A stretch of 64,000 bases of DNA. It comes from Pseudomonadota bacterium. GTDB taxonomy: Bacteria; Pseudomonadota; Gammaproteobacteria; Xanthomonadales; Xanthomonadaceae. Under the pieces are notes generated by a model. That model was given only the letters and a program-made list of their open reading frames with translations, ran no database searches and was not told the DNA's origin. Below are positions 11,544 to 43,483 of the stretch, piece by piece; position 1 is the stretch's first letter, and every line of letters begins with the position of its first letter. The stretch covers positions 52,098 to 116,097 of the forward strand of contig CAUJJS010000254.1 of the NCBI GenBank assembly GCA_963205415.1. The letters are read 5' to 3'. The position numbers and the translations under genes are program-made.

Positions 11544-11648
11544 GGTACTTGGCTCAGCCGGTGCCGAAATCCAACCCCTTTTCTCGCTGTTTTAAGTGGC
11601 GCTTTGAGACAGGAAGGTTGAGCCTGCCTGAACAGGAGTTTGACGACC

Positions 11649-13634: not shown

Positions 13635-15071
13635 ATGTCGAATGCAGTGGTCAAGGTCAAGGTCAATGGCAGCCAGTCTATGCTGCCCACCGTGCTGGGA
13701 CAAGGCCCGGCACGGATCCCCACAGGCGGCAAGATCCGCGCCGGCATCAAGGTTCTGACGGCGAAGGCGGCTGCGCACCCCGATGCCCGCGCCATCTACG
13801 AGCGGGGCGTGGCAGCAGGCGACTCGTTTATCCAAATCGAGCAGGCGCTTGCCGCAGCGCTGCCCCAGCTCAAAACCCCGCTCATCCCCAAGAACGTGTC
13901 CTGGTTCACGGTGCGTGGCCAGGACTTTTCCAACCCCGAGATCGCCCGTCAGATTCTGGAGGTCCATGGGGAAGACCGGGATGATGGCGTTAAGCGCCTC
14001 TACCGGTTCCCGGTCGTGTTCCCATCCGACTTCTGGCAGGTGGTGATGCCCCACGAGCTGGCGGCCTGGGGTGCTGCAGAGAAGCACTACTGGTCCGAAT
14101 ACTCGCCGGATGGCCGTGTGCGCTACTGCAAACAGCACGCATCCGTGCCCTTTGACGACACGGGCAAGCGGGTGATTCGCTTGTTTGGCGGGCGCAAGAC
14201 GATGTTGCGTGAACAGAACGGTGGTTTGTGTGACCCGGAGTCCTGCAGTGAATACCAACTTCGCCAGTGCAACCTGACTGGGCGCTTCCTGTTCTTCATC
14301 CCGGGCATCCGCTCCATCAGTGCCTTCGAGCTGCACACCAACAGCTTTTATGCGATGAACATGGCCATCCAGAAGTTCGAGACCATCAGCTTTCTGCGCG
14401 GCGGGCGCATCTCGGGCTTTCTGGACAGCCAGCGCACGCCGTTCTACCTGACCAAGAAGCTGATGGATGTGGCGCGCATCGACGAGCAGGGTCGGGCAGT
14501 GCGGGTGCCGCAATGGATCATCGATCTGGAAGCACCGGTCGATGTGACCGCGTTGATACGCCACAACGAGGACCAAGGCGCTGCCATCGTCCAAGCGCAA
14601 CTTGCGGCGCACGTGCTTGACGGTGCCTTAGGCCCAGGGAATGGTGTTGACACCGCCGATCAACCGCCCGTAGACGCAGAGCCAGCAGGCAACCAACGCC
14701 AGAGCCAGCCAGAGAGCGAGGTCGGCTGGAGGGATATTGTCACGAAGGGGCCAACGCTTGAACAAATTGCTGACAAGGTCCAATCCTATGGCATCAATCT
14801 GGCCCAGTATGACGCCTACGCTGACCAGCGCTGGGGCAGTGGCTGGCGTTTCAATGCTTTTGGTCGCCAGCACGCCCATGAGGAACTGGCGCGTTACCGG
14901 AACGACCCGAAGGGCTACCTCGACAAGATCGACTGCGTGATGCGGGGGGGCATGAGCGGGCCGCGAACTTTCAAGGCTTGGTCTGACCACGCCCTTGACC
15001 CCAAGGGGGGCGGGACGAAGCTGTCGGAACCGACCCCATCGTTCAAAGCACAAGCCCAGGAGGCCCCATGA
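13635..15071 (+). CDS. Gp3-like / recombination-directionality-factor-like protein (hypothesis)
   Basis: NGGLCDPESCSEYQLRQCNLTGRFLFFIPGIRSISAFELHTNSFYAMNMAIQKFETISFLRGGRISG resembles Gp3-like RDF signature (Cys pair, LPGI.., T-S-.., GGRI). Confidence 0.5.
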   Translation: MSNAVVKVKVNGSQSMLPTVLGQGPARIPTGGKIRAGIKVLTAKAAAHPDARAIYERGVAAGDSFIQIEQALAAALPQLKTPLIPKNVSWFTVRGQDFSNPEIARQILEVHGEDRDDGVKRLYRFPVVFPSDFWQVVMPHELAAWGAAEKHYWSEYSPDGRVRYCKQHASVPFDDTGKRVIRLFGGRKTMLREQNGGLCDPESCSEYQLRQCNLTGRFLFFIPGIRSISAFELHTNSFYAMNMAIQKFETISFLRGGRISGFLDSQRTPFYLTKKLMDVARIDEQGRAVRVPQWIIDLEAPVDVTALIRHNEDQGAAIVQAQLAAHVLDGALGPGNGVDTADQPPVDAEPAGNQRQSQPESEVGWRDIVTKGPTLEQIADKVQSYGINLAQYDAYADQRWGSGWRFNAFGRQHAHEELARYRNDPKGYLDKIDCVMRGGMSGPRTFKAWSDHALDPKGGGTKLSEPTPSFKAQAQEAP

Positions 15072-16384
15072 TCCGCATTGCCCAGTTTTCTGATCTTCAC
15101 TACAGCGCCAAGAACCTGGTCGAGGCCGACCGCTGCTTCAGCCATGCCGTGGACCGTGCCATCGCCGTGAAAGTGGATGCCGCTGTGGTGTCGGGTGACT
15201 CGACGGACCATGCGCTGGACCTGCATTCACCCGCTGTGGAGCGGCTGGCACGCAATATCCGGCGTTTGGCCGACCATTGCCCGGTGCTGATGCTACAGGG
15301 CACGTTCTCGCATGAACCGCCGGGCACACTGTCGATGTTCCGGTTGCTGGGCGGACGCTACCCGGTGCATGTCGCCGACCGGATCGGGCAGGTGGGGCTC
15401 ATGGATGACGGGCGCTGGGTAGCGTCGGAAGACTGGCAGTTCACGGTCTGGCCCAGTGGGCTGCGTGCCTTGTTTTCTTGCGTGCCGACGGTGAACAAGG
15501 CGGTTGTGGCGGCCACCGTGGGTGCCAGTTCAGCGGCAGAAGCTGTGGGGGAGCATCTGGCTGTGCTGCTGCGTGGGTTTGCCGCCAGCAACCTGGCAGC
15601 ACGCGATCAAGGCCTGCCCACCATCGCGGTGTCGCACGGCACAGTGTTCGGCTGCATTTCAGAGCATGGTGTGCCCATGGCGGGTTTTGATCATGAATTC
15701 ACGACCGGCGCGCTGTTTGCGGCTGAGGCGAGCGCCTTCATGCTGGGCCACATCCATCGGCATCAGGCCTGGGAGAACAAGGCTGCGGCGTTTGAGGGCA
15801 GGGCGGGACATCAGTGCATCGCCTATCCCGGCTCCATCGGGCGTTTCCACTATGGCGAGGAGGGCGACAAAGGCTTCCTGCTGTGGAAGATCGATGCAGA
15901 CAAGGTGCGCTTCACGCTGGAGCCCACGCCGGCGCGCCGCACCCTTGACATCGTGTTTGAAGGCAAACCCGATCTGGCCGGGTTGCGCGAAGTTGTCGAG
16001 CGGGAAGGCATTGACGGGGCCTTTGTTCGGGTGCGCTGGACCGTGGCCGACGAGGATCGACACGAAGTGAACCGCGCGGCGATGCAGAAGACGCTGGAAG
16101 GCGCAGCGGAAATCAAGCTAGAAGGACGCATCGTGCCGGTGGTGCGCACACGGGCGGCGGGAATCTCCCAACTCGCCAGCCTTGCGGACAAGGTGCGGGT
16201 TTGGGCGACATCCACTGAAGCGAAGCCCCAGCCGCTGCTCGACTGCCTTCAAGCGCTGGCAAGCCAGGCGCCGGAGGCGATTGCCGAGCGAACCCTGTGC
16301 GGGACTGCGGTGCCCACGGCGGAAGTCATGGCGGAGTTGTCATTGACCGAAGACGCAGATGCGGAGCCCGCACTGTTGTTCTGA
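15068..16384 (+). CDS. SbcD/Mre11-like metallophosphoesterase
   Basis: IRIAQFSDLHYSAKN...VVSGDSTDH...LMLQGTFSHE...FMLGHIHRHQ calcineurin-like motifs; 4-nt overlap with the upstream ORF. Confidence 0.85.
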   Translation: MIRIAQFSDLHYSAKNLVEADRCFSHAVDRAIAVKVDAAVVSGDSTDHALDLHSPAVERLARNIRRLADHCPVLMLQGTFSHEPPGTLSMFRLLGGRYPVHVADRIGQVGLMDDGRWVASEDWQFTVWPSGLRALFSCVPTVNKAVVAATVGASSAAEAVGEHLAVLLRGFAASNLAARDQGLPTIAVSHGTVFGCISEHGVPMAGFDHEFTTGALFAAEASAFMLGHIHRHQAWENKAAAFEGRAGHQCIAYPGSIGRFHYGEEGDKGFLLWKIDADKVRFTLEPTPARRTLDIVFEGKPDLAGLREVVEREGIDGAFVRVRWTVADEDRHEVNRAAMQKTLEGAAEIKLEGRIVPVVRTRAAGISQLASLADKVRVWATSTEAKPQPLLDCLQALASQAPEAIAERTLCGTAVPTAEVMAELSLTEDADAEPALLF

Positions 16385-16466
16385 CGCGGCCACCCAAGGC
16401 GCGAATGGACTTGAACAAGGTCCATTGCGCGCGAGACTGGTTCCATCCTTTATCTGGAGCACGATC

Positions 16467-18944
16467 ATGCAAGTTCTTTCATTGACCCTCAAGGGGTTTC
16501 GGGGCATCCGCGATGGCTTGGGCCGCGACGAGCTGAGCCTGGACTTCGAACAGCTGGCCGATGGCGCCGAGCTGGTCGCCATTGCTGGCGCCAATGGGCG
16601 GGGCAAGACCACCGTCATGGACAACATGCATCCCTACCTGACCATGCCCTCGCGCGCCGCCGTGGCGGGGCCGGGTGGTTTTTCATACTACGACCACGTC
16701 TGCCTGCCCGAGAACGAGAAGGACCTGACCTGGGCGCACGAGGGGCGCAGCTACCGTTCGCAGGTGGTGATCCGCCTCAATGGCCGGCGCAAGACCGAAG
16801 CTTTTCTGTTCGCACTGGGCGATACGGGCAGCTGGATGCCGCTGCGGCTTGATGATGGCACGGTCTCCGATGGCAAGGTGGAAACCTATAACCGTTGCGT
16901 GGAGGCGATCTGCGGCAGTGCCGACACCTTCTTTACATCGGTGTTCTCCGCTCAGGGCAAACGCCAGCTCAGCACCTACCGCAATGCGGAGATCAAGACC
17001 TTGCTGGCGGATTTGCTCGGGCAGGAGGAAATCCGCGCCCTGGGTCAGAAGGCGGGTGAGACGGCGCGGCTGCTCAAGGCCGGGCTGTCGGCCATCCGGC
17101 AGGAACTGGCCGGTTTCGATGAGGAGGCCGGGCGGGTCTCAAGCGAGCGGCGACGGCTTGATGGCGCGTCGGGTCGGGTGGTGCAGAGCCTTGCCGCCCG
17201 GCAACTGGCGCAGCGTGACCTTGAAGCCGTTAGGGCCCGGCATGCCAGGCTGTCGGCCGAACGCGACCAGTCACGGGTCACCGAGACACGGCGTGCGCAA
17301 TTGCTGGCCGAGCGCAAGGCGCTGGTCGATACGGGTACCCAGGCCATCGAGGCCCTCAAAGCACAAGACCAGGGCGAGCAGCAGCGGCTGGAACGGCTGG
17401 TGCAGCGCATCCTGAACCGGGTGAACCAGGAACGCACCCGCTGGCAGGCTTTGCAGCATACGCAGCGGCAGTGTCGGGAGGTCTTGGAGGCTGCCGGAGC
17501 AGTGCGGCGCGCCGTTGCCCGACTGCCGCTGGCCGAGCGTGTGCTGTCGTTGCGTAATGCGCAGACTGCGACGAGTCGTCAGCAGGCCCAGCGCCTGACC
17601 CAATGCCAAGGGGCCGAGCACATGGCCGAGCAGAAGCTTGCAGGCATTGAGCGGGAGGCGGGTAAGGCGGTGCTCCAGGCCGAAGAACTGGCCCACCGCT
17701 TCGGCCTGACGAGCGAGGTGCCTTGTGCCGGAACCGACCTGCAGGGCCAATGCAAGCTGCTGGGAGATGCGCGCGACGCGCAGGCCTTGATCCCGAGTGC
17801 CAAGGGGCAGATCACCCGGTTGGTACGGGAGAAGGCGCAGGCGCAATCGGAGTTGGCCGCCGCCCGCCAGCTACGGGAGGCCCTGGTCGATGCGCCGCAG
17901 GCTGTTGCGTGGGCTGAGCACAGGGGCGATAGGGCCCGGGAGCGTGCGTCACGGCTCGCGGTACTCGCTGCGAAGGCAGGTGAAATGGCGCAAGCGCGCA
18001 CCGCACTGGTCCACGTCGAGCAGGAACTTGGGGCGCTGGGGCAAGGTGATGCTGCCCAATGGGATGGGGCAGAGACCTCCGAGGAGCAGGCCGAACGCCA
18101 GCAGATCGACAGGGCACGACAGGTGGTTGCCGAACAACTGGCGCGGCAGTCCCAGCATTTTCGGGCAGGGATGAACCGGTTGGAAGAAACGCTGACTGCC
18201 ATGCCTGTGCCCTACGACGAGCAGCAACTCGCTGCGGCTGTCCAGGCCATGGCGCAGACCGAAGAGTCGGTTGCAGGAGCAGAGCAATCACATCTGGCGG
18301 TGGTGCGGGATGCCCAGCAACTGGAGGCACTGTGCCATCACACCCAGTCGCTCGCGGCGCGGCGCTCGCAGGTTCAGACCCGAATCGCCCACGTGGAAGC
18401 CGAACTGGGTGGCTGGAACCTGTTCGCGCGCTGCATGAGCAATGACGGCTTGATCGCCCTGGCCATCGACGATGCCGGTCCGGCTCTGTCGGGGCTGGCC
18501 AACGACCTGCTGCTGGCGTGCTACGGTTCGCGCTTCACGGTGTCCATCCATACCTTGGTGGAGACCGGCAAGGGCGAGCAGCGGGAAGGCTTTGACATCG
18601 TCGTGCACGATGGCGATTCGGGCGAGAGCAAGAGTGTTGGCTTGATGAGCGGCGGTGAACGCGTCTGGATCAACGAGTGTTTGATCCGGGCGGTCGCCCT
18701 GTACCTGGTCCAGAACTCTGGCCGGCGCTATGCGACGCTGTTCTCGGACGAAGCCGATGGGCCGCTGGACCCCGAGCGCAAGCGCATGTTCATGGCGATG
18801 AAGCGGGAGGTCTTGCGCCTGGGCGGCTATGAGCGGGAGTTCTTCGTTTCGCAGACGCCAGAGCTGACGGCCATGGCTGATGTGGTGATTGACCTGGATG
18901 CGCAGATGGTGTCGGCGCATGCTGCGGAATGCGTGGCCGTTTGA
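16467..18944 (+). CDS. SbcC/Rad50-like AAA ATPase
   Basis: Walker A GANGRGKTT, coiled coil with PCAGTDLQGQC hook-like Cys pair, signature LMSGGERVW, Walker B TLFSDEADGPLD. Confidence 0.85.
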   Translation: MQVLSLTLKGFRGIRDGLGRDELSLDFEQLADGAELVAIAGANGRGKTTVMDNMHPYLTMPSRAAVAGPGGFSYYDHVCLPENEKDLTWAHEGRSYRSQVVIRLNGRRKTEAFLFALGDTGSWMPLRLDDGTVSDGKVETYNRCVEAICGSADTFFTSVFSAQGKRQLSTYRNAEIKTLLADLLGQEEIRALGQKAGETARLLKAGLSAIRQELAGFDEEAGRVSSERRRLDGASGRVVQSLAARQLAQRDLEAVRARHARLSAERDQSRVTETRRAQLLAERKALVDTGTQAIEALKAQDQGEQQRLERLVQRILNRVNQERTRWQALQHTQRQCREVLEAAGAVRRAVARLPLAERVLSLRNAQTATSRQQAQRLTQCQGAEHMAEQKLAGIEREAGKAVLQAEELAHRFGLTSEVPCAGTDLQGQCKLLGDARDAQALIPSAKGQITRLVREKAQAQSELAAARQLREALVDAPQAVAWAEHRGDRARERASRLAVLAAKAGEMAQARTALVHVEQELGALGQGDAAQWDGAETSEEQAERQQIDRARQVVAEQLARQSQHFRAGMNRLEETLTAMPVPYDEQQLAAAVQAMAQTEESVAGAEQSHLAVVRDAQQLEALCHHTQSLAARRSQVQTRIAHVEAELGGWNLFARCMSNDGLIALAIDDAGPALSGLANDLLLACYGSRFTVSIHTLVETGKGEQREGFDIVVHDGDSGESKSVGLMSGGERVWINECLIRAVALYLVQNSGRRYATLFSDEADGPLDPERKRMFMAMKREVLRLGGYEREFFVSQTPELTAMADVVIDLDAQMVSAHAAECVAV

Positions 18945-26922: not shown

Positions 26923-29900
26923 TCAAGCGACCTGTCTAACCTCTTCGGTATCGACTTTCGCGCTGCCCATCTCATCCTTGTCCAGATCAAGCTGTTTGAG
27001 CAGCTCTCGCTGACGGGCGAGCAGATTCACCAGACGCCCTTCGTGCTCGAAGGTCCGTGCCAGTTCCAGCCGGATGTCGTCCAGCCGCTTGCGCCGCACC
27101 TCCAATTGCACAACTGCATCGGTGTGGTGCTTGACCACCGATTCCAGTGCCGCCATCAGGCTAGCCACGAGGGCCGGACCCGTCTGGTACGGTTCAGAGT
27201 TGTACAGGCAATGGCCAGACAGGTACAGGTTGGGCACTTCCTCGCCGCGTGCCGCCAGGATGCCCAGATCAAACCCACCAAAGCGGCCAACCACCCGTTC
27301 AATCATGCGGGTGCCGGTGCGCACCTCTTCTTTGGCTGCCTTGACCAGACCCCGCAGGACTTCCCCCACGGTATCCGGCCCGGTGACCGGTCGACCCGCC
27401 AGTTCCAGGGCAATGCCCTGCATGGTTTGCGGCTCGATACGCGCCACGTCCTGGGCATACAGCGCAATCTTCTTCTCCAGGGCTTCGATCATCATCGGCA
27501 GCCGCCCCACCTCGCTTTCATTGGCGTAGCGCTGATTGCGCCACACCGAGAACAGCGTTGACAGTTTGGCCACCTCTGCGTCCACACCAGCTTTTTCGAT
27601 GACAAGCGGATTGCCGGAGGCCAAGGCTTTGACCTCGGCATATGACAACGTCGCCAGTTCCACATCTTCCAGTGATCGGATGCCCTTGTCGCCCTTCATC
27701 ACCTGGGCGATGAAGCGCGCCTTGGTCTCCAGCGTTTGCCACAGGTACGCATCGAAGCTCTGCTCCGTCACGTACCTGAATATCTCCACGTCCTCGCACT
27801 CATTCCCTTGGCGCAGGATGCGCCCCTCTCTTTGCTCGACGTCACAGGGACGCCAGGGCGCATCGAGGTGGTGCAGGGCGCACAATCGGGTTTGCACATT
27901 GGTGCCAATACCCATTTTCGCGGTCGACCCGAGCAGCACCCGGACCCGTCCCTCACGCACCGCCTTGAACAGCGTGGCTTTCTGGACGTCGGTGTCAGCA
28001 TCGTGCACAAAGGCAATCTCCTTGTCAGGCAGGCCCGCATCGATCAGCCGTTGCCGCAAATCGTCGTACACGCTGAACCTCTTGTCCCCCTTGGGCGATG
28101 ACAGATCACAGAACACCATCTGGGCACCACGGAAGTCCGATGTCCTTCGCCAGATGTCCGCCACCTCGCGCACACAGGCGGCCACCTTGCCCTTGGCGTC
28201 GAACCTGGCAGTCGGCACCACCAGCCGGAAATCCAGCGCCGCCTTGCGGCCGTCCGTGGTGATCGCCAGCATGTTGTCGTCCTGCGGCTTCACATGGCCG
28301 CTGCGGATGGCTTCCGCCCGCAACACCAGGGTCTGCACAAAAGCCTTGAGCGCCTTGCTGGCCGGACAGGCCACGATGCGTGGTTTGCCACCGCGCAGAG
28401 GTGGTACCGGCAGGTTCAGCATCTCCGCCGTGCGGATGTCGGCCACTTCACCGAATACTGCCATCAACTCGGGCACGTTGATGAAACGGGCAAACCGCGT
28501 GTGCATGCGGTAGCCACTGCCGTCCGGTGCAATTTCCAGTGCCGTGACGCTCTCCCCGAAGGTGGCGGCCCAGGCATCAAACTGCTGCAACCCGAGCTCC
28601 TGCAGCCGGTTCGGCTGCAGGTAGCGCATCATGGTGTGGATCTCCGCCATGGTGTTGGCCACCGGCGTCGCGGTGGCGAATACCACCCCACGCTGCGCAT
28701 GCCCATGAATCTGCATGGTGTAGCGCGTCTTCAGGAACAGGTCGAACGCGCGTTCCGAGCTGGTCAGCGGTAGGCCCGCGACGCGGGTCATCTTGGTGAA
28801 CCGGTACAGGTTCTTGTGCAGATGCGCCTCGTCCACGAACAGGCAGTCGATGCCCAGCAGTTCCCAGGTGAGCAGGTCATCCTTCTTCTGGTCCGCCAAC
28901 AGGCGCTCCAGCCGGGCGGCCCAGTTCTTCTTCATCGCCTCCAGTTGTTTGACGATCCGGTTGGACTTGTCATTGCTCTTTTCAGCGCGTACTGCCATCT
29001 CTAGCTCATGAATAATCTCCTTGATAAAGCGCTCCGTAAATTGCGGTGACATCTTGATGCGCTCAAAGCTTGAGTGCGTGATGACCACTGCGTCCCAGTC
29101 GCCCGTGGCAATGCGCGACACCAGTTCGCGCCGGCGGTCGCCTTCCAGGTCCTCCTTGCTGGCCATCAGCACCGATGCATTCGGGTAGAGCCGCACAAAC
29201 TCCGCCGTGTACTGGCTCAACATATGGTTCGGTACCACATGGCAAGGCTTGGTGATGAAACCCAGGCGACGCAACTCGATGCTGGCGATCACGCACACCG
29301 CCGTCTTGCCCGCGCCGACCACGTGGAACAGCCCGGTGTTACCCGACTGCACGATTCGCCAGACGGAATCCAACTGGTGCGGGTGCAGCGTGAAACAGCG
29401 GGAGAATCCCGGCAGCTTCAGGTGTGAACCATCGAACTGCCGTGGCCGGGTGGCGTTGAACAGCTCGTTGTAGATGCGGCACAGCTTTTCTCGGCGGGCT
29501 GTATCGTCGAAGGCCCAGTTCGCGAACCGTTCCTTGATCAGTCCCAGCTTCTCGCGCGCGGCCAGCGTCTCACCCGGATTGACGACGTACTTGTCCGTCT
29601 CGGGGTCCGGGTCACGCACCGTGGGCACCTGCACGTTCAGCGCGCATTGCACCAGCTCCATTGCGTTCATGCGCGAGGTGCCGAACTCCTGCGTCACCTT
29701 CACGTTCTGGCGCGCTTCCCAGTCGCCATAGCGTACCGACCAGGCACCGGCCTCGGCCGAATAGCTGACCTGGCAGTCCTTGAGTTCAAGAACCTCCTGG
29801 ACAAACGACTCGACGTCGATGGCCGGGATCCAGACCGCACCCAGGCGCGGCTCGATGGACGCTGGTGGCAGGTCTTCGGGTTGCACCTGCTCCAGCGCGT

Positions 29901-31911
29901 TGACGTTGCGCCGGTAGGCGCTGCCCGACATCACGGCTTGCTTGAGCTTGGCCTTCACGTTGCCTGACAGGTAGTCGTCGGCGGTTTTCCACTCAGAATC
30001 TGCCGGATCCAGAAATATCTGTCCAGCCTCGGTCAGTGCTTGCAGCACTGCATCATCGGGCACGGCGAGCAGTTCGGCCATGTAGGCTGGATCGACCCGA
30101 CCGCGCCACTGAATGGATGCCGCCAGCGCTTCGACCGGTTCTCCCGCCGTGGCTGGTTCCACCACCCGTGTCAGCGTGCGCCGAGTGAACAGCGCCGCCT
30201 TCTTGGCGGTGTCCGATTCTTCATCGTAGTGTTCCAGCGACAGCAGCAAGGGGTAATCCGGGTCGCGCCGGAACGCCAGCGCATTGGCTCGGGTGCTCAG
30301 ACAACCGTATTTGGCAACGAAGCGGTCATAGGTGCCGTTGAGCAGGGCCCGCAAGTGACCCAGCCGTCCGTCGTTACTTTCGGACAGCTGTGCGTCGAGC
30401 AAGGTCCGGGCGTAGTCGCGAATGGCACACATGCCAGTGATCCGGCCTCGCTGCGTCGCGTTGAGCCGGTCATGGACGTCCGTCATCTCACTGCCTTCGA
30501 CCCGATGTACCCGCCCTTGGTGGAGGCGGTAGCTGCCGGGGTGGGCGACGGATTCGGCCGGCACCACGACGCGCAGCGCCATAGGTTTTCTGATCAGCGG
30601 CGCGTAGACATCAGAAGGGAGCAGGGCAACCCGTTCCGGCAATGCGACTTCCAGGTCACCGTCGAACACCGCGACCGGCACTTCCTCGTAGCCGTTGCTC
30701 TCCTGCCGAATCCGGCCAATGCAGAACTCAGGATGCTTGGCGTACCAGGCATTGATCTGCAGGTATTTCTGATAGCACTGCGGGTCGCGCAGTGTCTCGG
30801 GCACCATATTGAGGGTCAGCCACGTGTCATCGACCATCTCGGCCCGCTGCCGCTTGCGCAGAAACAGGATGTCGGTCTGCACGTCGGTGGACGCGATGCC
30901 TGAGAAAGCACCTTTGGGAAGCCGGATCGCGCCCAGCAACTGAGCTTGTGCGCCGAGGTAGTGGCGCACAGTCGCATCCTGTGCATCCAGCGTGTAACTG
31001 GTGGTGATCAGGCACACCAGCCCACCGGGCCGCACCAGATCCAGCGCGCGGCCAAAGAAGTAGTTGTGGATGCTGAACCGGGCGTAGGCCCGATTGCTCA
31101 CGTCGGCGACGGGGTACTTGCCAAACGGCACGTTGCCGATCACCAGGTCGAACCAGTTGTCGGCAAGGGCGGTTTTCTCGAAGGGGGAAATCCGCACATC
31201 GGCACCGCCCGGCGCATACAGCGCGTGCAGCATGCGCCCGGATAACTGGTCGATCTCGACCGCCGTGACGCTGCTTTGCTCGGCGATGGCTGCTGGCATC
31301 GCGCCGATGAAGTGGCCAATACCCGCAGCGGGCTCCAAAATGCGCCCGCCATTGAAGCCAAAGCGTTGCACGGCCTGCCACATTACTTCGATCACATGGA
31401 CCTCGGTGTAGTGGCTGTTGTTGACCGAGGCACGGGCTGATTCGTACTCATCCGGGGTCAGCAGTGCACTCAACTGCCGGGCACGTTTGGCCCAGGCCGC
31501 GTCTTCGGCTTCGAGGTTGAAGCTGGCGGGCAAGCCGCCCCAGCCGGTGTAGCGCAGCAGGGTGCTGAGTTCTTTCGGGGTGACTGCACGTTGTTCGGCC
31601 TCGATGTGGTGCAGTACCTTGATCGCAGCCAGGTTGGCCTCGAACTTGGTGACGCTGCCGCCCAGCTTATTCAGATCGGCGCGGACCAACTGTGGCCACA
31701 AATTGCGCGGTGCAGTTTCTGCGGTGCCGCTGACCACACGCCAGTTGGCACGCAGACGCGCCGGTTCAGCAGATTCTCCGGCAGGACTTTCCTCCGTAGT
31801 GGATGCCAGATCAGAAACAGGCGGTTCGGTCTCGATGAAAAGAGCTGCGGGCTCGGACGGCTCCGGATTGAACCCGGGTAGCCATAGGGAAGGCGCGGTA
31901 AAGCGTGCCAT
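26923..31911 (-). CDS. very large N6-adenine methylase + SNF2/DEAD helicase fusion (DarB-like)
   Basis: Motif I EPAAGIGHFIGAMP, NVPFGKYP, Walker A GAGKT, DEAH, FATATPVANTMAE, MGIGTNVQTRL..QREGRILRQGN; ATG at 31911 after GGAGAACACACCC. Confidence 0.85.
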   Translation of the reverse strand: MARFTAPSLWLPGFNPEPSEPAALFIETEPPVSDLASTTEESPAGESAEPARLRANWRVVSGTAETAPRNLWPQLVRADLNKLGGSVTKFEANLAAIKVLHHIEAEQRAVTPKELSTLLRYTGWGGLPASFNLEAEDAAWAKRARQLSALLTPDEYESARASVNNSHYTEVHVIEVMWQAVQRFGFNGGRILEPAAGIGHFIGAMPAAIAEQSSVTAVEIDQLSGRMLHALYAPGGADVRISPFEKTALADNWFDLVIGNVPFGKYPVADVSNRAYARFSIHNYFFGRALDLVRPGGLVCLITTSYTLDAQDATVRHYLGAQAQLLGAIRLPKGAFSGIASTDVQTDILFLRKRQRAEMVDDTWLTLNMVPETLRDPQCYQKYLQINAWYAKHPEFCIGRIRQESNGYEEVPVAVFDGDLEVALPERVALLPSDVYAPLIRKPMALRVVVPAESVAHPGSYRLHQGRVHRVEGSEMTDVHDRLNATQRGRITGMCAIRDYARTLLDAQLSESNDGRLGHLRALLNGTYDRFVAKYGCLSTRANALAFRRDPDYPLLLSLEHYDEESDTAKKAALFTRRTLTRVVEPATAGEPVEALAASIQWRGRVDPAYMAELLAVPDDAVLQALTEAGQIFLDPADSEWKTADDYLSGNVKAKLKQAVMSGSAYRRNVNALEQVQPEDLPPASIEPRLGAVWIPAIDVESFVQEVLELKDCQVSYSAEAGAWSVRYGDWEARQNVKVTQEFGTSRMNAMELVQCALNVQVPTVRDPDPETDKYVVNPGETLAAREKLGLIKERFANWAFDDTARREKLCRIYNELFNATRPRQFDGSHLKLPGFSRCFTLHPHQLDSVWRIVQSGNTGLFHVVGAGKTAVCVIASIELRRLGFITKPCHVVPNHMLSQYTAEFVRLYPNASVLMASKEDLEGDRRRELVSRIATGDWDAVVITHSSFERIKMSPQFTERFIKEIIHELEMAVRAEKSNDKSNRIVKQLEAMKKNWAARLERLLADQKKDDLLTWELLGIDCLFVDEAHLHKNLYRFTKMTRVAGLPLTSSERAFDLFLKTRYTMQIHGHAQRGVVFATATPVANTMAEIHTMMRYLQPNRLQELGLQQFDAWAATFGESVTALEIAPDGSGYRMHTRFARFINVPELMAVFGEVADIRTAEMLNLPVPPLRGGKPRIVACPASKALKAFVQTLVLRAEAIRSGHVKPQDDNMLAITTDGRKAALDFRLVVPTARFDAKGKVAACVREVADIWRRTSDFRGAQMVFCDLSSPKGDKRFSVYDDLRQRLIDAGLPDKEIAFVHDADTDVQKATLFKAVREGRVRVLLGSTAKMGIGTNVQTRLCALHHLDAPWRPCDVEQREGRILRQGNECEDVEIFRYVTEQSFDAYLWQTLETKARFIAQVMKGDKGIRSLEDVELATLSYAEVKALASGNPLVIEKAGVDAEVAKLSTLFSVWRNQRYANESEVGRLPMMIEALEKKIALYAQDVARIEPQTMQGIALELAGRPVTGPDTVGEVLRGLVKAAKEEVRTGTRMIERVVGRFGGFDLGILAARGEEVPNLYLSGHCLYNSEPYQTGPALVASLMAALESVVKHHTDAVVQLEVRRKRLDDIRLELARTFEHEGRLVNLLARQRELLKQLDLDKDEMGSAKVDTEEVRQVA

Positions 31912-31985
31912 GGGTGTGTTCTCCAAAAAAAATGGGGAACACAGCCACCCACTGGGGAGACGTGCTCCCCGGGTGGGAATGAATG
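31912..31985 (-). promoter_or_regulatory. structured 5' leader (radC-RNA-motif-like), copy C
   Basis: CCACCC-GGGGA-GCACGTC-TCCCC-AGT-GGGTGG then GTGTTCCCC-T8-GGAGAACAC. Confidence 0.7.
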
Positions 31986-32169
31986 AGAGGGTCAAGAATG
32001 ACCCCGTGTTTGAACGCGAGCACGCCGGGCTTCGGGAGAAGCTGGTGGGCTCAATGGGCTATGAAAAAGATGAAATGGCCTGTCGTCAGACGACGACAAG
32101 CGGATAAATCAAGCCGGGGTAAGAACCCCGGCACGAATGACAGCCGCTAGGTGCGGCGCCAACAGGGAA

Positions 32170-33018: not shown

Positions 33019-33670
33019 GGAGGAAATTTCGTGTCAACAAGAAGACCTCAGCATAGGCATGGGGGGCTGACTGCCCCAACGGAAATGGCGTGTTTTACGG
33101 CGGCTTATTGTGATCAGTCCAACGGTGTGGAAGGCGAATCGGCGTAGTGACTGTGATTCAACTCAAGTGCAAATTTACCAGTAGGATCAGAGGCTGAGGC
33201 AGAGCCTGGCTTGGCTCCGCCACGAGCTGTACGGTCGGCCCGCTGTTCCAGCGTAGCTCGCCTTTCGTATCGTCGAACCAAAGCAACGCTTCTTTGAAAG
33301 TGCGGTGTTGGCGCGGGGAAGTGGCCATGTTCACGAACAGGAGTGTGGTCACCGTCGCTTTGTCGATCCACAACCATTGAAAAACCGTGGATTTGGGTGT
33401 GTTGATGGGTTGGTTGAGCCGCTTGATTTCCGCAAGATACCCTTGTGGTGCGGAAAAAAGGAACAGGATTTCGTACAGCGGTGGCATGGACAGGACGGCG
33501 TGAGTGGTGCAGAGAAATGCGTTGAAATCAGGCTGAGTTTTGCCGCGCTATTTTCCGTGGGACATGGAGCGATGCTATCGCACATGGGGCTTGAAGAACG
33601 GGTGGCGCATGAGATTCTGAATGCATGGACAGCACGTCGCTGTGTCCTTTTCAACCCTTCAGGAGTTCCC

Positions 33671-35716
33671 ATGAAATTCTCGAAAGCCGAAATTGAAGCC
33701 GTCATTGAAGCATCCCCTCGCACCACCGTCCCCTTCAATAAGCTGGTCTTGTCGGAGGCTTACCAGGCGCGGTCGGCTGGCAGCACGTCGAAGATGAGCA
33801 TTGCTGAACTGGCGGCATCTATCAAGGAAAGCAATGTCCTGCAAAACCTGATCGTCGTGAAAGGAGCACGCGGTCTGTTCGAGGTTTGTGCAGGCGGTCG
33901 CCGTCTCGAAGCACTGGCCCTGTTGGTCATTAACGGCGACATTCCCGAAAACTACCCCGTTCCCGTGCTGATCGTGCCCGCCGACAAGGCCCTGATGGCC
34001 AGCCTTTCAGAAAATTTCTTCCACATTCCCATGCACCCGGCCGACGAATACACCGCCTTTGCCAGGCTGATCGTGCAGGGCAAGTCGATTGAGGACGTGG
34101 CAGCCGCCTTTGGTGTCACACCGCTGGTGGTCAAACGCCGCATGAAGCTGGCGACAGTGTCCCCGAAGTTGATGGCGCAGTTCCGGGAAGACAAGATCGG
34201 GCTGGACTGCCTCATGGTGCTGGCTTCGGTCGATGAGCACGACAAGCAGGAGCAGGCTTGGGCCGGTGTGCCGGCCTGGAATCGCCGCCCTGACTACCTG
34301 CGTCAATGGCTCACGCTGGGCGAGATCGAATCTGATCGTGACCCGGTGGTCAAGTACGTGACTGTCAAGGCCTATGAGAAAGCCGGTGGCACACTGCGTC
34401 GCGACCTGTTCAGTGACGACGACAAGAAAGCCTATCTGCTGGATGCTCCGCTGCTGGAAAAGCTGGCGACCGACAAACTGCAGAAAAAGGCCAAGCAGGT
34501 CTTGCTGGAGGGCTGGAAGTGGGTTGATGTCCGCGTGCGCTACAACTACGACGAATTCGTCAAGTACGGTGAATTGCGCAAGACCCGGCGCGTGCCGACC
34601 GAGCAGGAAGCCGCCAGCATCGCTGAACTCGAAGCCAAAATGACAGCGCTGCATGACCAGATGGAAGCATTAGCCGAAGCAGGCACAGATGAGGGCGATG
34701 AGGACCGCGAATATGAGAATGAGAAGCTCGAAAGCGAGTCCGAGGGTCTGCAGGCGCAGTTCAAGGCTCTGGAAAACACTCTCAGTGTGTGGCCTGCTGA
34801 CCTGATGGCCCAGGCCGGATGCGTGGTTTTTGTCGGCAACGACGGTGCAGTGGCCCTCAAGTGCGGCTTGGTCCGACCCGAAGATCGTAGCGAGATGGCG
34901 CAGGCGGTGCGGCTGGCAGGCGAGGGCGGTGACGACGAATCGCTTGTGTCGCTGCCATCACCCAAGACCCGCCCCGTCCATTCCGACAAGCTGATGCGGC
35001 GACTTACCGCCCACCGTGTCATCGCCGTTCAGGCTGAACTGGTCGACCGTTCGGACGTGGCGCTGGCGGCGCTTACCGCGCAACTGGCCCAGAAGATGTT
35101 CCGGGATAACGACCATCGCTACTACCGGTTGGAACCTGTCTTCGCGATCACCGCGACCGACAGCGAGTTCGAACTGCGATCCGCTGCCGATGACCTGGAA
35201 AGCTGCGCTGCCTGGGCGAAGGTGCAGGCCGAACGTGCCGCGTGGGCCAAACGCTTGCCGACCGATCTGGATGCGGTCTTCCCGTGGCTGCTGGCGCAGG
35301 ATCAGACCACGGTGCTGCAACTGCTGACCTTCGTGGTCGCGGTCACCACCGTCGGCATTTGTGGTGTCGAATCCGAACGGCAGAGCAACGACGCGCTAGC
35401 CCACGCCTTGGGGTTGGACATGAGCAAATGGTGGACGGCCACCGGCCCTTCGTATTTCAACCACGTGTCCAAGGGGCGAATCCTGGAAGTCGTGACCGAA
35501 GCCGTCGATGCCAATGCAGCCAGCCCGCTGGCCGCACTCAAGAAGGATGCCGCCGTGACGGGGGCCGAGCAGACTGTGGCGGGCTCGGACTGGTTGCCCA
35601 CCGTGCTGCGGGTCGGGATGCCTGAGAAAGTCAGCCCGTCCGGAGGTGCCGACGAACCGCCTGTGGGACCGGACGGCGCAACACAGCGGGTGCAGGAGCC
35701 CGCGTTGGCGGGGTAA
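33671..35716 (+). CDS. ParB/Spo0J-like partition protein (large)
   Basis: ATG at 33671 after CAGGAG; SIKESNVLQNLIVVKG...VCAGGRRLEALALL...SLSENFFHIPMHPADEYTAF. Confidence 0.85.
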   Translation: MKFSKAEIEAVIEASPRTTVPFNKLVLSEAYQARSAGSTSKMSIAELAASIKESNVLQNLIVVKGARGLFEVCAGGRRLEALALLVINGDIPENYPVPVLIVPADKALMASLSENFFHIPMHPADEYTAFARLIVQGKSIEDVAAAFGVTPLVVKRRMKLATVSPKLMAQFREDKIGLDCLMVLASVDEHDKQEQAWAGVPAWNRRPDYLRQWLTLGEIESDRDPVVKYVTVKAYEKAGGTLRRDLFSDDDKKAYLLDAPLLEKLATDKLQKKAKQVLLEGWKWVDVRVRYNYDEFVKYGELRKTRRVPTEQEAASIAELEAKMTALHDQMEALAEAGTDEGDEDREYENEKLESESEGLQAQFKALENTLSVWPADLMAQAGCVVFVGNDGAVALKCGLVRPEDRSEMAQAVRLAGEGGDDESLVSLPSPKTRPVHSDKLMRRLTAHRVIAVQAELVDRSDVALAALTAQLAQKMFRDNDHRYYRLEPVFAITATDSEFELRSAADDLESCAAWAKVQAERAAWAKRLPTDLDAVFPWLLAQDQTTVLQLLTFVVAVTTVGICGVESERQSNDALAHALGLDMSKWWTATGPSYFNHVSKGRILEVVTEAVDANAASPLAALKKDAAVTGAEQTVAGSDWLPTVLRVGMPEKVSPSGGADEPPVGPDGATQRVQEPALAG

Positions 35717-36111: not shown

Positions 36112-36519
36112 ATGCACACCGCAACCCTTCAGGTTTCCCCAGCCTTGAGTCACGGTTTCGATGGCTTCATCGATTTCCTGCGTGACCAGGAAGCGGGGGC
36201 GTCTACGCTGTCGCCGAAACGATTCGGCGACGTGCTGAGCATCGACATCCAGACGCTTGCCACCCAGGCACATGTCCATCGCAACACCATCAGCCGGGCA
36301 CCGGCGTCGGAGAGTGTGCAGAAATTTCTGCGCGAGGCGCTGCGCGTGATGCGCGCGGCCCATGACCTGTCCGGCGACGTCACCCGTGCCATCTTTTGGT
36401 ATCGCAACGAGCCGTTGCCCCCGTTTGGCTACAAGACAGCAGAGCAGCTGGTGTCGGAAGGGCGAACCGAAGATGTCCTGCGTTATGTGGAGTCGCTCGA
36501 AGCGGGTGCCGCAGGATGA
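36112..36519 (+). CDS. Xre/MbcA/ParS-family antitoxin
   Basis: HTH region and C-term FWYRNEPLPPFGYKTAEQLVSEGRTEDVLRYVESLEAG. Confidence 0.8.
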   Translation: MHTATLQVSPALSHGFDGFIDFLRDQEAGASTLSPKRFGDVLSIDIQTLATQAHVHRNTISRAPASESVQKFLREALRVMRAAHDLSGDVTRAIFWYRNEPLPPFGYKTAEQLVSEGRTEDVLRYVESLEAGAAG

Positions 36520-37037
36520 AGCTGACCGCGTTGGCCGATGTCACGGCTTACCGGATGCATGTGCCCAGATGGGCCGTCGCGCCAACCAGCGGGGCGGGGG
36601 CGGCCAAGCTTGGCGGGAGAGCCAATCGTCCCGGCGTGGAGGCCCTTTATCTGGCGCTGGAGACGGAGACGGCCGTTCGTGAATACCAGCAGGTTTCCAC
36701 GCTGTTGCCGCCCGGCACATTGACGAGCTATAAACTGACGGCAGCGCCGGTGGTCGATTTCACTGCGAGCTTCAGCGCGTCCGTATGGGAGCCCATTTGG
36801 GAAGACTTCTACTGCGACTGGCGTGAACTGTGGTTCAACCAACGTGTCGAGCCACCGAGTTGGGTCGTTGGGGATACGGTGATCGCTGTGGGGGTGAAAG
36901 GCATCCTGTTTCCTTCGCGTCTGGCCAAGGGCGGAACCAACCTGGTGTTATTTACCCACATGCTGGCTGCGCCGGATGTGTTGGAAGTTTTCGATCCGGG
37001 AAAGGCACTGCCGCAGACTCAGGCCTCCTGGTCTTGA
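36516..37037 (+). CDS. RES domain toxin
   Basis: YRMHVPRWAV...GGRANRPGVEALYLALETETAVREYQQ; ATGA overlap with antitoxin. Confidence 0.8.
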   Translation: MKLTALADVTAYRMHVPRWAVAPTSGAGAAKLGGRANRPGVEALYLALETETAVREYQQVSTLLPPGTLTSYKLTAAPVVDFTASFSASVWEPIWEDFYCDWRELWFNQRVEPPSWVVGDTVIAVGVKGILFPSRLAKGGTNLVLFTHMLAAPDVLEVFDPGKALPQTQASWS

Positions 37038-39552: not shown

Positions 39553-40599
39553 ATGGAATTGATCATTCGAGCCGTGGACGTTGGCTACGGCAACACCAAG
39601 TACGTCGCTGGGATTTCCGGTGATGAAATCCGTTGCGCCAGCTTTCCGTCGCTGGCCTATCCCTTTCCGCGCGACCCATCCACCACCCTGGGCGCAGATC
39701 GGCGCAAAACCGTCGCCATCCCGATTGGCGGCATGTTTTTTGAGGTGGGGCCGGACGTGATGCTGGCCGCCGACGCTTTTCGTGCCACGCAGATCCACGA
39801 CAACTTTATTGACACCCCGGAATACTTGGCCCTGGCACGCGGGGCACTGCGCATGATGAAGGTCGACACCATCGACCTGCTGGTGGTGGGGCTGCCGGTG
39901 GCCATGTTTGCCTTGAAGAAGGCCGCGCTGGAAAAGTTGATGACTGGTACTCACGACGTGGGTAATGGAAAGACCGTGCTGGTGCGCAAGGCGCTGGCCA
40001 TGGCACAGCCCAATGGGGCACTGATCGACTATGCCTCGCAGCATGACAAAGTGGTGGCAATGGAGAACGAGCACAGCCTGGTGATTGACCCCGGTTCGCG
40101 CACCTTCGACTGGCTGGTGGCGCGGGGCATGAAGTTGTCGCACAAGCGCAGCCATTCGGTCAACCGCGGGGTGTCCGACATCCTGCAGGTCATTGCGGAT
40201 GACATCAGCGCGGAGATTGGCCAACCTTACAACCAGTTGGACGCCATCGACCTGGCCTTGCGCACCAACAAGAATCTGACGATCTTCCAGCGGACCTACA
40301 GCCTGGCGCGCATGAAGCCCATGGTCGAAAGCGTGGCCAAGCAAGCGGTCGGGGCCATGATCCGCCGCATTGGCGAGTTCTATGACGTTCAGCACGTTAT
40401 TCTGGTTGGTGGAGGTGCCTTTCTTTTCAAGAAGGCAGTCAAGGAGGCTTTTGCGACGCACCAGATATTGGAGGTGAAGGAACCAATGTTCTCGAATCTC
40501 CGGGGTTACCAGATCGCAGGCACGAATTACGCCGCCACTGCGATGCAGGCGTCGTCACGCTTGTCGCCCGCAGTGCGGTCGGAAGGAGAGGGCGCATGA
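39553..40599 (+). CDS. ParM/StbA-like plasmid segregation actin (PRTRC protein D-like)
   Basis: AVDVGYGNTKYV...LVIDPGSRTFDWLV...HVILVGGGAFLFKKAV. Confidence 0.8.
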   Translation: MELIIRAVDVGYGNTKYVAGISGDEIRCASFPSLAYPFPRDPSTTLGADRRKTVAIPIGGMFFEVGPDVMLAADAFRATQIHDNFIDTPEYLALARGALRMMKVDTIDLLVVGLPVAMFALKKAALEKLMTGTHDVGNGKTVLVRKALAMAQPNGALIDYASQHDKVVAMENEHSLVIDPGSRTFDWLVARGMKLSHKRSHSVNRGVSDILQVIADDISAEIGQPYNQLDAIDLALRTNKNLTIFQRTYSLARMKPMVESVAKQAVGAMIRRIGEFYDVQHVILVGGGAFLFKKAVKEAFATHQILEVKEPMFSNLRGYQIAGTNYAATAMQASSRLSPAVRSEGEGA

Positions 40600-40898
40600 C
40601 ACAGAAGACAGACCCCAATACCGAGCCGGTGCGCTTGCTGTTTGAGATGACACGCGAGGACAACCCGCGCCTGTATGACGACCTGATCCGGTTCAACAAG
40701 GGGACGAAGCGGGTGAACCGGCTGCGCTTTCTGGCCCAAGAAGGGCTGTTGGCGCAGAACTGGATGTTGGTGCCGGTGGGAGGTGGCATATCTCATTCGC
40801 CTGGGGCAGCACGGCCCGCTTCTATAAGTGTGAACCCAATCGCAGCGGGGCACATGGTCCAGGCATTCGATGTGCCGACCCTTGGTGGGGAGGACTGA
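40596..40898 (+). CDS. putative ParR/StbB-like partner of the ParM-like protein
   Basis: 4-nt overlap with parM-like gene; NPRLYDDLIRFNKGTKRVNRLRFLAQEGLL. Confidence 0.55.
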   Translation: MTQKTDPNTEPVRLLFEMTREDNPRLYDDLIRFNKGTKRVNRLRFLAQEGLLAQNWMLVPVGGGISHSPGAARPASISVNPIAAGHMVQAFDVPTLGGED

Positions 40899-40900
40899 TC

Positions 40901-41224
40901 GTGGCCGAGCTGAAAAAGCATATGCATCAGAAGGTGACGGTCGGCGCCTCGGAACTGGCACAGATGGGTGTGTGCGAACGCTTGGTGGTTTTCGAGCATC
41001 GGTATGGCAGGCAACGGACCGCAGAACAGCAGCGGGCAGCCATGCGCGGCCTGCGAGCCCATAAGCGGTTCTATCGGGAGCGGCAGGGGGATTCAGCCCG
41101 CCAGGGACGTTGTTTTGTGGGGCACTTCAGATATTGGGCCAGAAAGCTTCAGCGGGCCTGGTACCGTTTGATCCGGTATGTGGCACGATGGCTTCAGGCC
41201 CCGGAATCGCGCGATGGGCCTTGA
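40901..41224 (+). CDS. Cas4/RecB-like N-terminal half (GTG start)
   Basis: SELAQMGVCERLVVFEHRYG...QQRAAMRGLRAHKRFYRERQG resembles Cas4 first Cys + GxxxH region. Confidence 0.5.
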   Translation: MAELKKHMHQKVTVGASELAQMGVCERLVVFEHRYGRQRTAEQQRAAMRGLRAHKRFYRERQGDSARQGRCFVGHFRYWARKLQRAWYRLIRYVARWLQAPESRDGP

Positions 41225-41741
41225 AACTGTTGCCGTGGTGTGGTTTGTTGCGGTTGTTGTTGTCCTCTGGTGGCACTTGTGGCCGCGTCCTCCTGAGGAC
41301 GAGCTACCGCCGGAGTTGCGTGGCACTCGCTTGGTCTATGCGGAGCGCCTATTTCGTTCGTTTGGGCCGATATCGATCACGGCCAAGGTGGACAGGGCCT
41401 ACCGCGATGCGAAAGGAGCGTTGGTACTGGTCGAGCTGAAGACCCGGACGGTGCATCGGGCATATCGGTCGGATGTCATTGAGTTGTCGGCCCAGCGCGT
41501 GGCGTTGATGGCACAGATGGGGGAGAGTGTTGCGGACCATGCCTATGTCTTGACGGAGCGACCGGATGGTCTCCGAACGGGATGCCATCGAGTGAGGCTC
41601 ATGGAGCCTGTCGATCTGAATGCCCTGGTTGCGAGGCGGGAAAAACTGCTTGCTGGAAAGGTCGAACCTCAGCCCACCTGCGCACCGGGGATGTGTCAGA
41701 AATGTGCGTTCGTTCGGCCATGCGATCCACCTTGGCGGTGA
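41214..41741 (+). CDS. Cas4/PD-(D/E)XK nuclease-like C-terminal half with N-terminal TM and Fe-S Cys motif
   Basis: TM VAVVWFVAVVVVLWWHLW; AKVDRAYRDAKGALVLVELKT (D..ExK); CAPGMCQKCAFVRPC. Confidence 0.65.
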   Translation: MGLETVAVVWFVAVVVVLWWHLWPRPPEDELPPELRGTRLVYAERLFRSFGPISITAKVDRAYRDAKGALVLVELKTRTVHRAYRSDVIELSAQRVALMAQMGESVADHAYVLTERPDGLRTGCHRVRLMEPVDLNALVARREKLLAGKVEPQPTCAPGMCQKCAFVRPCDPPWR

Positions 41742-41805: not shown

Positions 41806-43167
41806 CTAATTCTTCACTTTCAATATCGATTCAAGATGCGCGCCGAGCACATTCCACGCGTCGCGCTTCTCGGGAGCAAACTCATAGCGCCCGTAGATAC
41901 GTCCGAGCTTGCCACCTACTACATGATTGAGGCACCGTTCACGCACATGCTCGGACACGCCGAGTGACTGCATCAAAGTCGACCCAGTTCGGCGCAAATC
42001 ATGAGGGGTCCATTCACCGCCTGGGAGGACGAGTGTGTTGTCGTTGCGGCGATTCTTCAGCGGTTTGCGCTTCTTGAACTGGAATTGGCGGTCCCCAATC
42101 TGCTTCGAGACCGACTTCGGACTCAAGTGACTGTCTTCGTCGCGCGATGGAAAGCACCAAATGCTGTCCTTCGTGATCTGTCGAAGTGCCTGAAACTGTT
42201 GCAGCGCGAAGTCGGACAGGAACACCATCCATTCGACTTTTGTCTTTGTACTCTCGCGGGGCACAAGCCACTCGCCGGTTTGCAAGTTGACGTGCTCCCA
42301 GCGCGCATTGCAAAGCTCCCCTATGCGGCAGCAAGTGGACAGCATGATCCATATGGAAAGTCTCGTTTCGGCGCTCACGGGGCGAACTCCGGTGCGCTTA
42401 TTCGGGGCATTGTCGTACTCGGCCTGCATCCTGACAAAGATGTCGCGCAGAGTGCGTATCTCATCCGCGGTGAGGATGCGATCACGTTCGTTGGCGAGAT
42501 CGTATTCGGCAAGCACAACCTGCTTTGCTTCGACAAGCTCAGCTGGATTGCCTTCTATCAGCAACGGTCGCCAAGGTTTGCGTTTCTCGGCCCAGCGAAA
42601 GAGCTGACGGAGATCTGCAAGCTGAAGGACCGCTGTACGGCACTTTCCCCGCGTGCGGCCAATCTTACGGAGCAGGTCCCGAATGTCCGACTCTGTCACA
42701 TGGCGGACAGGCTTTGCGCCGAGCGTCGGCAGGATATTCTTTTCGAACGACCTTCGTAATTCTGCGTTGGCATCACCTCGCGCCACGCCATCTGCAAGCC
42801 ATGCATCGAACATGGCTTTGAAAGGAAGGTCTTCCGCCTTGCGGCGCTCAGCCTCGGCACTGAGGGCTTTGAGTTCTTTTGCCTGTTCGGCCTCGACCGC
42901 GATCAGCGCGACTCGGGGATCGAGGCCTCCAGCGATGCGTTCTCGTTCGACATTAGCCCGTTCACGTGCGCTGGCCAGTGTGACGTCGTCCATATCGCCG
43001 AGAGATAGCTTGCGTCGCCGCCCGCTGTGCGTGTAAATAAGTTGCCACGTCTTCTTGCCAGTTGGAAGCACACGCAAGAACAGTCCATCACCGTCGCTGA
43101 CCAGGTACTCCTTGCCCGTTGGCTTGGCCGCTCTTACGGCCTTTACGGTCAATAAATCACGTGCCAT
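41806..43167 (-). CDS. P4-type tyrosine integrase (DUF4102 N-terminus)
   Basis: LTVKAVRAAKPTGKEYLVSDGDGLFLRVLPTGKKTWQLIY...CCRIGELCNARW...WTPHDLRRTGSTLMQSLG...IYGRYEF. Confidence 0.92.
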   Translation of the reverse strand: MARDLLTVKAVRAAKPTGKEYLVSDGDGLFLRVLPTGKKTWQLIYTHSGRRRKLSLGDMDDVTLASARERANVERERIAGGLDPRVALIAVEAEQAKELKALSAEAERRKAEDLPFKAMFDAWLADGVARGDANAELRRSFEKNILPTLGAKPVRHVTESDIRDLLRKIGRTRGKCRTAVLQLADLRQLFRWAEKRKPWRPLLIEGNPAELVEAKQVVLAEYDLANERDRILTADEIRTLRDIFVRMQAEYDNAPNKRTGVRPVSAETRLSIWIMLSTCCRIGELCNARWEHVNLQTGEWLVPRESTKTKVEWMVFLSDFALQQFQALRQITKDSIWCFPSRDEDSHLSPKSVSKQIGDRQFQFKKRKPLKNRRNDNTLVLPGGEWTPHDLRRTGSTLMQSLGVSEHVRERCLNHVVGGKLGRIYGRYEFAPEKRDAWNVLGAHLESILKVKN

Positions 43168-43431
43168 GTAGCCCCACTTTCTAGCAGTACCATGTGTGAG
43201 AACGCTCGTGGCAATGTTCACGAGTTAGCCCCTTTCATGATGGTAAATATTTTAGGTCAAATGCCATGTTCTGGGAACAGTCTGGGAACGATTGGCGAGG
43301 GCTATGGTGAAACGCTTTGGGACGGTGTGACACCACTATTTGCAATAATTCTTAATATTATCAATAAGTTAGGCGAATTTCATGGCATCCAATGACGTCT
43401 CAAGAAGTGCATTAAAAAGGTGTATATACGT

Positions 43432-43478
43432 GGCTACGAACCAAGGGGTCGTGGGTTCGATTCCTGCCAGCCGCACCA
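43432..43478 (+). other. 3' fragment of tRNA-Arg(ACG)-like gene: presumptive attR of the island
   Basis: CTACGAA anticodon-loop-like, GGTCGTGGGTTCGATTCCTGCC T-arm and AGCCGCACCA acceptor/CCA, without a 5' half upstream. Confidence 0.75.
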
Positions 43479-43483
43479 ACTTG

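Follow-up and report, generated by a model that had tools for sequence, protein, structure and literature searches.

Cas4/RecB-type nucleases are described as single chains in which a cluster bound by four cysteines staples the N- and C-terminal parts of the domain together. AddB and AdnA have such an Fe-S staple, and MGME1 is not known to have an Fe-S cluster. In the Cas4 family (TIGR00372, PF01930/PF12705) the conserved residues follow one another in the order Cys, GxxxH, D, ExK, Q-x3-Q/Y and CxxCx5C, and a survey of the family states four cysteines in the Fe-S module for all members; the same survey mentions a Cas4 clade in conjugative plasmids of Burkholderiales, and no split (PMC5704561). 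Here, we describe two genes, A and B, whose products together carry this same motif order. Whereas Cas4 is single-chain, A and B are two polypeptides, always encoded by two genes, with a membrane helix on B and either a CFI box or a membrane helix on A, and, unlike CRISPR Cas4, they occur without cas genes. The PD-(D/E)XK core of B is that of the RecB, AddB and AdnA nuclease domains; however, those domains are fused to helicases, whereas A and B are two chains with no helicase. EXO5, which shares with A an 'L...CE' start in a weak alignment, and MGME1 also differ from A/B in being single chains, eukaryotic or mitochondrial. In A and B an Fe-S staple would join two gene products, so that nature itself provides a test of two points, whether the cluster keeps the active site together and whether a split enzyme can be controlled through its assembly or its location.

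The window, by which we mean the whole stretch of 64,000 nucleotides that was analysed, comes from a Xanthomonadaceae genome whose assembly is fragmented and about 85% complete. The A/B region is seated in what looks like an integrated element lying between about 10.5 and 43.4 kb of the window, and integrase genes are present at either end of it. The features of the locus are as follows.

39553..40599, plus strand: ParM/StbA-type actin-like protein of the PRTRC system protein D family (TIGR03739, E 1.9e-130; ALP_N/MreB-like_C).
40596..40898, plus strand: conserved 100-aa partner ORF, possibly a ParR-like adaptor; overlaps the ParM stop by 4 nt.
40901..41224, plus strand: half A, probable N-terminal part of a Cas4/EXO5-type nuclease with a degenerate CFI-box domain as its tail (invariant residues in homologues; hhalign to the Cas4 N-terminus).
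40973..40975, plus strand: codon of Cys25, predicted Fe-S ligand 1 (sequence; invariant in 22 CFI-type A proteins).
41060..41062, plus strand: codon of His54 in G50xxxH54, predicted active-site His (sequence; invariant in alignments).
41214..41741, plus strand: half B, with membrane helix, PD-(D/E)XK core and C-terminal CxxCx5C (PDDEXK_1; hhalign to Cas4; AlphaFold2 model).
41220..41279, plus strand: N-terminal transmembrane helix of B, model residues 3-22 (Kyte-Doolittle 2.27; helix in the AlphaFold2 model).
41391..41441, plus strand: predicted catalytic D60 ... E74-x-K76 of B (in 31 homologues D and K never vary and E/D is conserved).
41694..41723, plus strand: C161-x2-C164-x5-C170 of B, predicted Fe-S ligands 2-4 (alignment).
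41806..43221, minus strand: tyrosine integrase found where the integrated element has its right end (Pfam Arm-DNA-bind_3 and Phage_integrase), given as context and outside the module.

An earlier, sequence-only reading of this DNA had placed the two ORFs in different frames with an 11-nt overlap, named their motifs, seen a transmembrane segment in ORF B and called the gene next door a ParM-like actin. The ORFs, the overlap and all of the named motifs are present in the sequence, the transmembrane segment is borne out by both the hydropathy value and the model, and the actin scores 434.5 bits with TIGR03739 (PRTRC_D) against a cut-off of 214.8. ORF A opens with GTG and encodes 107 aa, with Glu26 directly after Cys25; ORF B encodes 175 aa from the ATG at 41214, conservation giving no backing to a second in-frame ATG upstream, at 41178, as the start. 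That reading had also called the gene at 40596-40898 ParR-like. It is indeed a conserved gene, kept in all of the Rhodoferax, Hydrogenophaga, Rubrivivax and Cupriavidus loci with dN/dS of 0.09-0.27, but its identity as ParR is unproven, since scans with family profiles gave no family match. BLAST likewise detected no homology between it and either the small gene beside the IncC ParM or the Piscinibacter counterpart. The window ParM itself is homologous to the ParM-like gene beside oriT/mobI in IncC (28%, E 4e-28). As for other members of a PRTRC system, a ParB-like gene at 33305-35716 reaches 67.7 bits with the PRTRC ParB model, under its cut-off of 278.6, and no ThiF-related member was found among the ORFs covered by a non-exhaustive scan. 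The absence of CRISPR, also claimed earlier, agrees with our searches: no CRISPR-like repeat array was found at 38-44 kb of the window, and no Cas1 in the host genome, about 85% of which is in the assembly.

Half B is readily placed. Pfam PDDEXK_1 (PF12705) matches it at E 7.5e-6 with 26.5 bits against a gathering cut-off of 22, and hhalign aligns it with type I-C CRISPR Cas4 at E 8e-10. Compared with Cas4 proper its scores are low: cas4 profiles give sub-threshold matches to B, and TIGR00372 gives 20-23 bits for the window, below the curated cut-off of 65 bits. An AlphaFold2 model of B (pLDDT 75.6) matches human MGME1, EXO5, AdnA and Cas4 in the PDB; EXO5 is the best sequence-profile match, and MGME1 and EXO5 are the best fold matches. 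The Cys tail is unstructured in this model, as would be expected if a partner were missing.

Half A is less conspicuous. In the window it has no significant match in Pfam and none to the CFI-box-CTERM model (NF041770, 40-bit cut-off), and the family as a whole, CFI box aside, has no significant match of its own in family libraries or the PDB; a poor AlphaFold model of A alone (pLDDT 60.5) matched nothing in the PDB. Nevertheless, when the A profile is aligned with the Cas4 N-terminus by hhalign, Cys falls on Cys and GxxxH on GxxxH, with a score of 17.4 against 15.9 for the best of 150 column shuffles. The concatenated A+B profile can be aligned from one end to the other with type I-C CRISPR Cas4 and, used as a query, retrieves this single-chain enzyme (positions 2-201, E 4e-9), and in the window the match to cas4g_cas1g improves from E 0.011 with B only to 3.6e-6 with A added (residues 6-205). 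Scoring single sequences against Cas4 HMMs is less clear, as adding A brings a slight gain that in several members does not exceed that from shuffled A. Profile-profile comparison with column shuffles is more informative than raw HMM scores of A+B against shuffled-A+B; descent of A from the N-terminal part of Cas4 is therefore probable, and not certain given the simpler scores.

Relatives of the pair are widespread, and the split is kept in every intact one examined, across Beta-, Gamma- and Alphaproteobacteria. A first search of species genomes gave seven further loci (four Rhodoferax, Hydrogenophaga, Rubrivivax and Cupriavidus), all with the order ParM, ~100-aa gene, A, B, and with A and B separate. 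Plasmids with both genes were found in Piscinibacter, Dyella, Methylophaga, Rhodanobacter, Xanthomonas, Cupriavidus, Acidovorax, Burkholderia and Denitratisoma. The two genes may overlap by 4-11 nt, be parted by another gene, diverge, or lie about 5 kb from each other. An intervening gene occurs in Dyella, Rhodanobacter and Xanthomonas plasmids (including L013, L017 and L023); in Dyella and Rhodanobacter it is a conserved gene of about 222 aa (4181-4852 in L013; 4438-5106 in L017 and L023), and the Xanthomonas plasmids have a gene in the same slot. Pseudomonas megaplasmids encode A as a 72-aa ORF that is divergent from B (L040, L041) or nearby. In an Azospirillum locus (L043) B is immediately preceded by a 98-aa ORF that ends in the A motif, and in genome G506 (L025) A is directly upstream of B. 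The annotated B of Cupriavidus pRK1-4 has a truncated 3' end immediately ahead of an IS21 element. In the Alcaligenes plasmid (L015), the only one with B and no detected A, B is without any ligand Cys. There, and in IncC-type plasmids, the gene directly upstream of B (L015 4399-4836; L016 4336-4845) is small and carries a conserved CDG...PH.W...D..LR, which by eye looks transglutaminase/papain-like. A search of phages gave no match, and a scan of IMG/VR gave no relative.

The largest group is formed by IncC-like plasmids, which make up most of the roughly 1150 plasmids that have a B homologue without A adjacent to it. B had been considered to stand alone in IncC, Pseudomonas, Vibrio and Pseudoalteromonas plasmids, and this was rejected when profile searches of whole records found a short A elsewhere on them; the Vibrio A, left out of a later profile, was recovered by it at E 2.5e-14. 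The IncC-type A is present in 1093 plasmid records and the IncC-type B in 1155, with near-identical genus tallies. In IncC, Edwardsiella and Pseudoalteromonas the A ORF encodes 90-95 aa, with a membrane helix at the C-terminus. This ORF directly adjoins mobI in IncC and Edwardsiella, and in IncC it precedes repA, with B downstream of repA about 5 kb from A. In pVCR94 mobI is vcrx001 and repA is vcrx003, and the ParM-like gene of the IncC backbone is vcrx152 (PMC3915882, PMC4207636); A sits at the position of vcrx002, and the ParM-like gene is divergent from mobI. The IncC arrangement differs from that of the window in the distance between A and B, in having membrane helices on both, and in a CxCx4H tail on B. 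Some A proteins are annotated by NCBI as 'CFI-box-CTERM' and some B proteins as 'Dna2/Cas4 domain' or 'PD-(D/E)XK nuclease', with no link found between the two annotations. Among openly licensed papers we found nothing on a split Cas4 or on the CFI box, an absence that is weak evidence; the split on IncC plasmids appears to have been overlooked.

The 22 CFI-type A proteins have invariant C, E, G, G and H, and C, G and H are invariant across all A types in an alignment that leaves out G506, whose A has no Cys. Across an alignment of 31 B proteins, D, K and the Q/E-helix Ser do not vary, and the E/D position is conserved. Values of dN/dS are 0.23-0.50 among A genes and 0.22-0.31 among B genes, except that one very close B pair reaches 0.54, with 0.03-0.07 for ParM, and by this measure both A and B are under purifying selection and functional. 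At the C-terminus of most A homologues, behind the Cas4 N-terminal half, there is an intact CFI box (NF041770; E 8e-18 to about 1e-17 in members scanned, and 61-64 bits, above the 40-bit cut-off, in L012, L011 and L003); the box is degenerate in the window A and its closest relatives.

The two halves also vary together across 31 pairs. Every B with CxxCx5C pairs with an A with 'CE' (25/25; the A of L050, whose short N-terminus was missed by the pattern script, has 'CE' and was scored by eye), every B with CxCx4H pairs with an A that has both 'CE' and a C-terminal membrane helix (4/4), and the B proteins without ligand Cys pair with A proteins without 'CE' (2/2). The four Cys of the Fe-S module are thus complete only jointly, one in A and three in B, in the window and in 25/31 pairs, and are changed or lost in six. 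Membrane features follow the same pattern, in that all five soluble B proteins pair with a short A lacking both CFI box and membrane helix, and B with a membrane helix pairs with A bearing either a membrane helix of its own or a CFI box, intact or as a remnant. The 31 pairs share descent and perhaps represent six to eight lineages, by estimate, rather than 31 independent events, so the covariation gives strong support for pairing, though not from independent samples. Departures from Cas4, with one or all cluster ligands changed, occur in some lineages. B proteins of the IncC clade (L048 5092-5613, L049, L045, L016) have a conserved C-x-C-x4-H tail in place of CxxCx5C, which may form an altered metal site to which A contributes one ligand. 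The L025 (G506) and L043 (Azospirillum) pairs keep GxxxH and D/ExK and have lost the cluster Cys in B and 'CE' in A; judged by their residues these are natural cluster-free variants, and with two members lacking the ligands Fe-S would not be universal in the split family.

Taken together, these data lead us to propose that a single Cas4/EXO5/RecB-type Fe-S PD-(D/E)XK nuclease domain is encoded as two polypeptides, A forming its N-terminal half and B its C-terminal half. To this reading we assign a probability of roughly 0.78; complex formation, the cluster and nuclease activity are inferred. A would supply the first cluster ligand and the GxxxH helix, and B would supply three further cluster ligands along with D, ExK and the Q/E-x3-Q/Y helix. 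Since neither half alone has a full active site or cluster, activity should need assembly of A and B through the shared Fe-S cluster. The B helix, with the CFI box or C-terminal membrane helix of A, would hold the enzyme at the cytoplasmic face of the inner membrane, and some lineages would make a soluble version. Basic residues follow the B helix in most lineages, which by the positive-inside rule would put the B domain in the cytoplasm. Because the CFI box takes the place of the C-terminal membrane helix of the IncC A, we suggest that it is a membrane-associating element.

The neighbours of A and B on conjugative elements are a ParM-like actin, mobI/oriT, repA, an S49/SppA peptidase, DsbA and conjugation genes, and it is from these that a role in transfer, establishment or maintenance is proposed. 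The nuclease is most likely an obligate two-subunit enzyme of conjugative elements, usually membrane-tethered and linked to a ParM-like actin and the oriT/mobI region. Working at the membrane, it might process DNA ends or single strands while the element is transferred, becomes established or segregates, a role that is speculative and that we put forward tentatively. In IncC, vcrx152, at the ParM-like position, is activated by the transfer activator AcaCD (PMC4207636). A broader version, to which we give somewhat less than even odds, is that an ancient, obligately split Fe-S nuclease, with an active site and cluster completed between separately encoded, membrane-held subunits and an activity switched on by assembly at the membrane, serves a core and unrecognised function of conjugative MOBH/MPF_F-type plasmids including IncC, acting on DNA at the transfer channel or in establishment. 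The module is carried, in genes annotated as hypothetical, by over a thousand IncC resistance plasmids and by other conjugative families, making A and B specific and readily deleted candidates for genes that act in the transfer, establishment or stability of major resistance plasmids.

The same neighbourhood could be read differently, with A+B, Cas4-like in fold but catalytically weak, binding DNA or its ends as a membrane anchor in segregation driven by ParM instead of acting as a nuclease. Such an anchor would fit with the genes for a ParM-like protein and a 100-aa partner that immediately precede A/B in the window family, with the ParM-like gene near the A half in IncC and with the membrane tether on B, and a Cas4-like protein has become a structural part of the nucleocapsid in an archaeal virus (PMC5704561). 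Nevertheless, D, E/D and K are near-invariant in highly diverged members, even where the Cys are lost, and several plasmids have A/B without an adjacent ParM, so we regard an anchor as unlikely. A defence nuclease acting against plasmids or phages from mobile elements is distinctly unlikely: Cas4 homologues are known in defence and defence-like genes also lie on the window element, but PADLOC matches are at most weak, generic Cas4 ones to B, and the location of A and B next to mobI, repA and ParM, within the conserved backbone of IncC, suggests a core function of the element and not variable cargo.

In a third alternative B would work by itself as a membrane PD-(D/E)XK nuclease, with A an unrelated CFI-box/membrane neighbour. 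All of D/ExK and three Cys are indeed in B, and A has no significant stand-alone Cas4 match. Against this, the motif in A is the very part absent from B, in the right order and spacing, the Cys of A and those of B are gained and lost jointly and the membrane elements match, and A is found even when far from B; we consider this alternative very unlikely. The sequence-only reading had left a choice between a real two-subunit Cas4-like nuclease, which our results support, and a single gene broken by a frameshift, whether sequencing error or pseudogene, which they refute. Two overlapping ORFs in different frames that together make one domain would look like the latter. Against it, relatives are split throughout, in frames that vary and with the two genes parted by another gene, divergent or far from each other; both halves are under purifying selection; and no single-chain relative found has the insertions that make up the A tail and the membrane helix of B.

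Two further candidates were tried and rejected for the split genes. The frame offset from A to B is +1 in the window and L012 and +2 in L003 and L011, and because it differs among lineages a frameshift fusion product is not conserved; with A also lying elsewhere in some plasmids, programmed frameshifting was rejected. A single-chain A+B homologue with a membrane segment was sought in about 800 genomes with the A+B profile, which found only ordinary type I-C Cas4. What had gone unnoticed in the earlier reading is that A normally has a CFI-box C-terminal domain, that A bears a second membrane anchor in some lineages, and that the pair is widely spread on conjugative plasmids.

Several other features of the window were observed. 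A 1690-aa protein encoded at 26923-31995 on the minus strand joins an N-terminal Eco57I/Mad2-like methyltransferase region to a C-terminal DISARM DrmD-like SNF2 helicase region and is possibly a defence gene on the same element as A/B. At 15068-18944 on the plus strand an SbcD-like phosphoesterase precedes an SbcC/Rad50-like ATPase that matches MAD3 weakly, beside a Gp3-like protein, a set that may be a recombination or defence module. An Xre/MbcA/ParS-type antitoxin and RES-domain toxin pair lies at 36112-37037 (plus strand), just left of the second integrase. Beside the integrase at 41806-43221 there is a possible 3' tRNA remnant (GGGTTCGATTCC-like) at 43420-43480, perhaps an attachment site, where ARAGORN called no tRNA. 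Finally, a DUF1173 protein (E 4e-96) is encoded at 11640-12854 on the plus strand, and DUF1173 also occurs a few genes upstream of A/B in Methylophaga plasmids.
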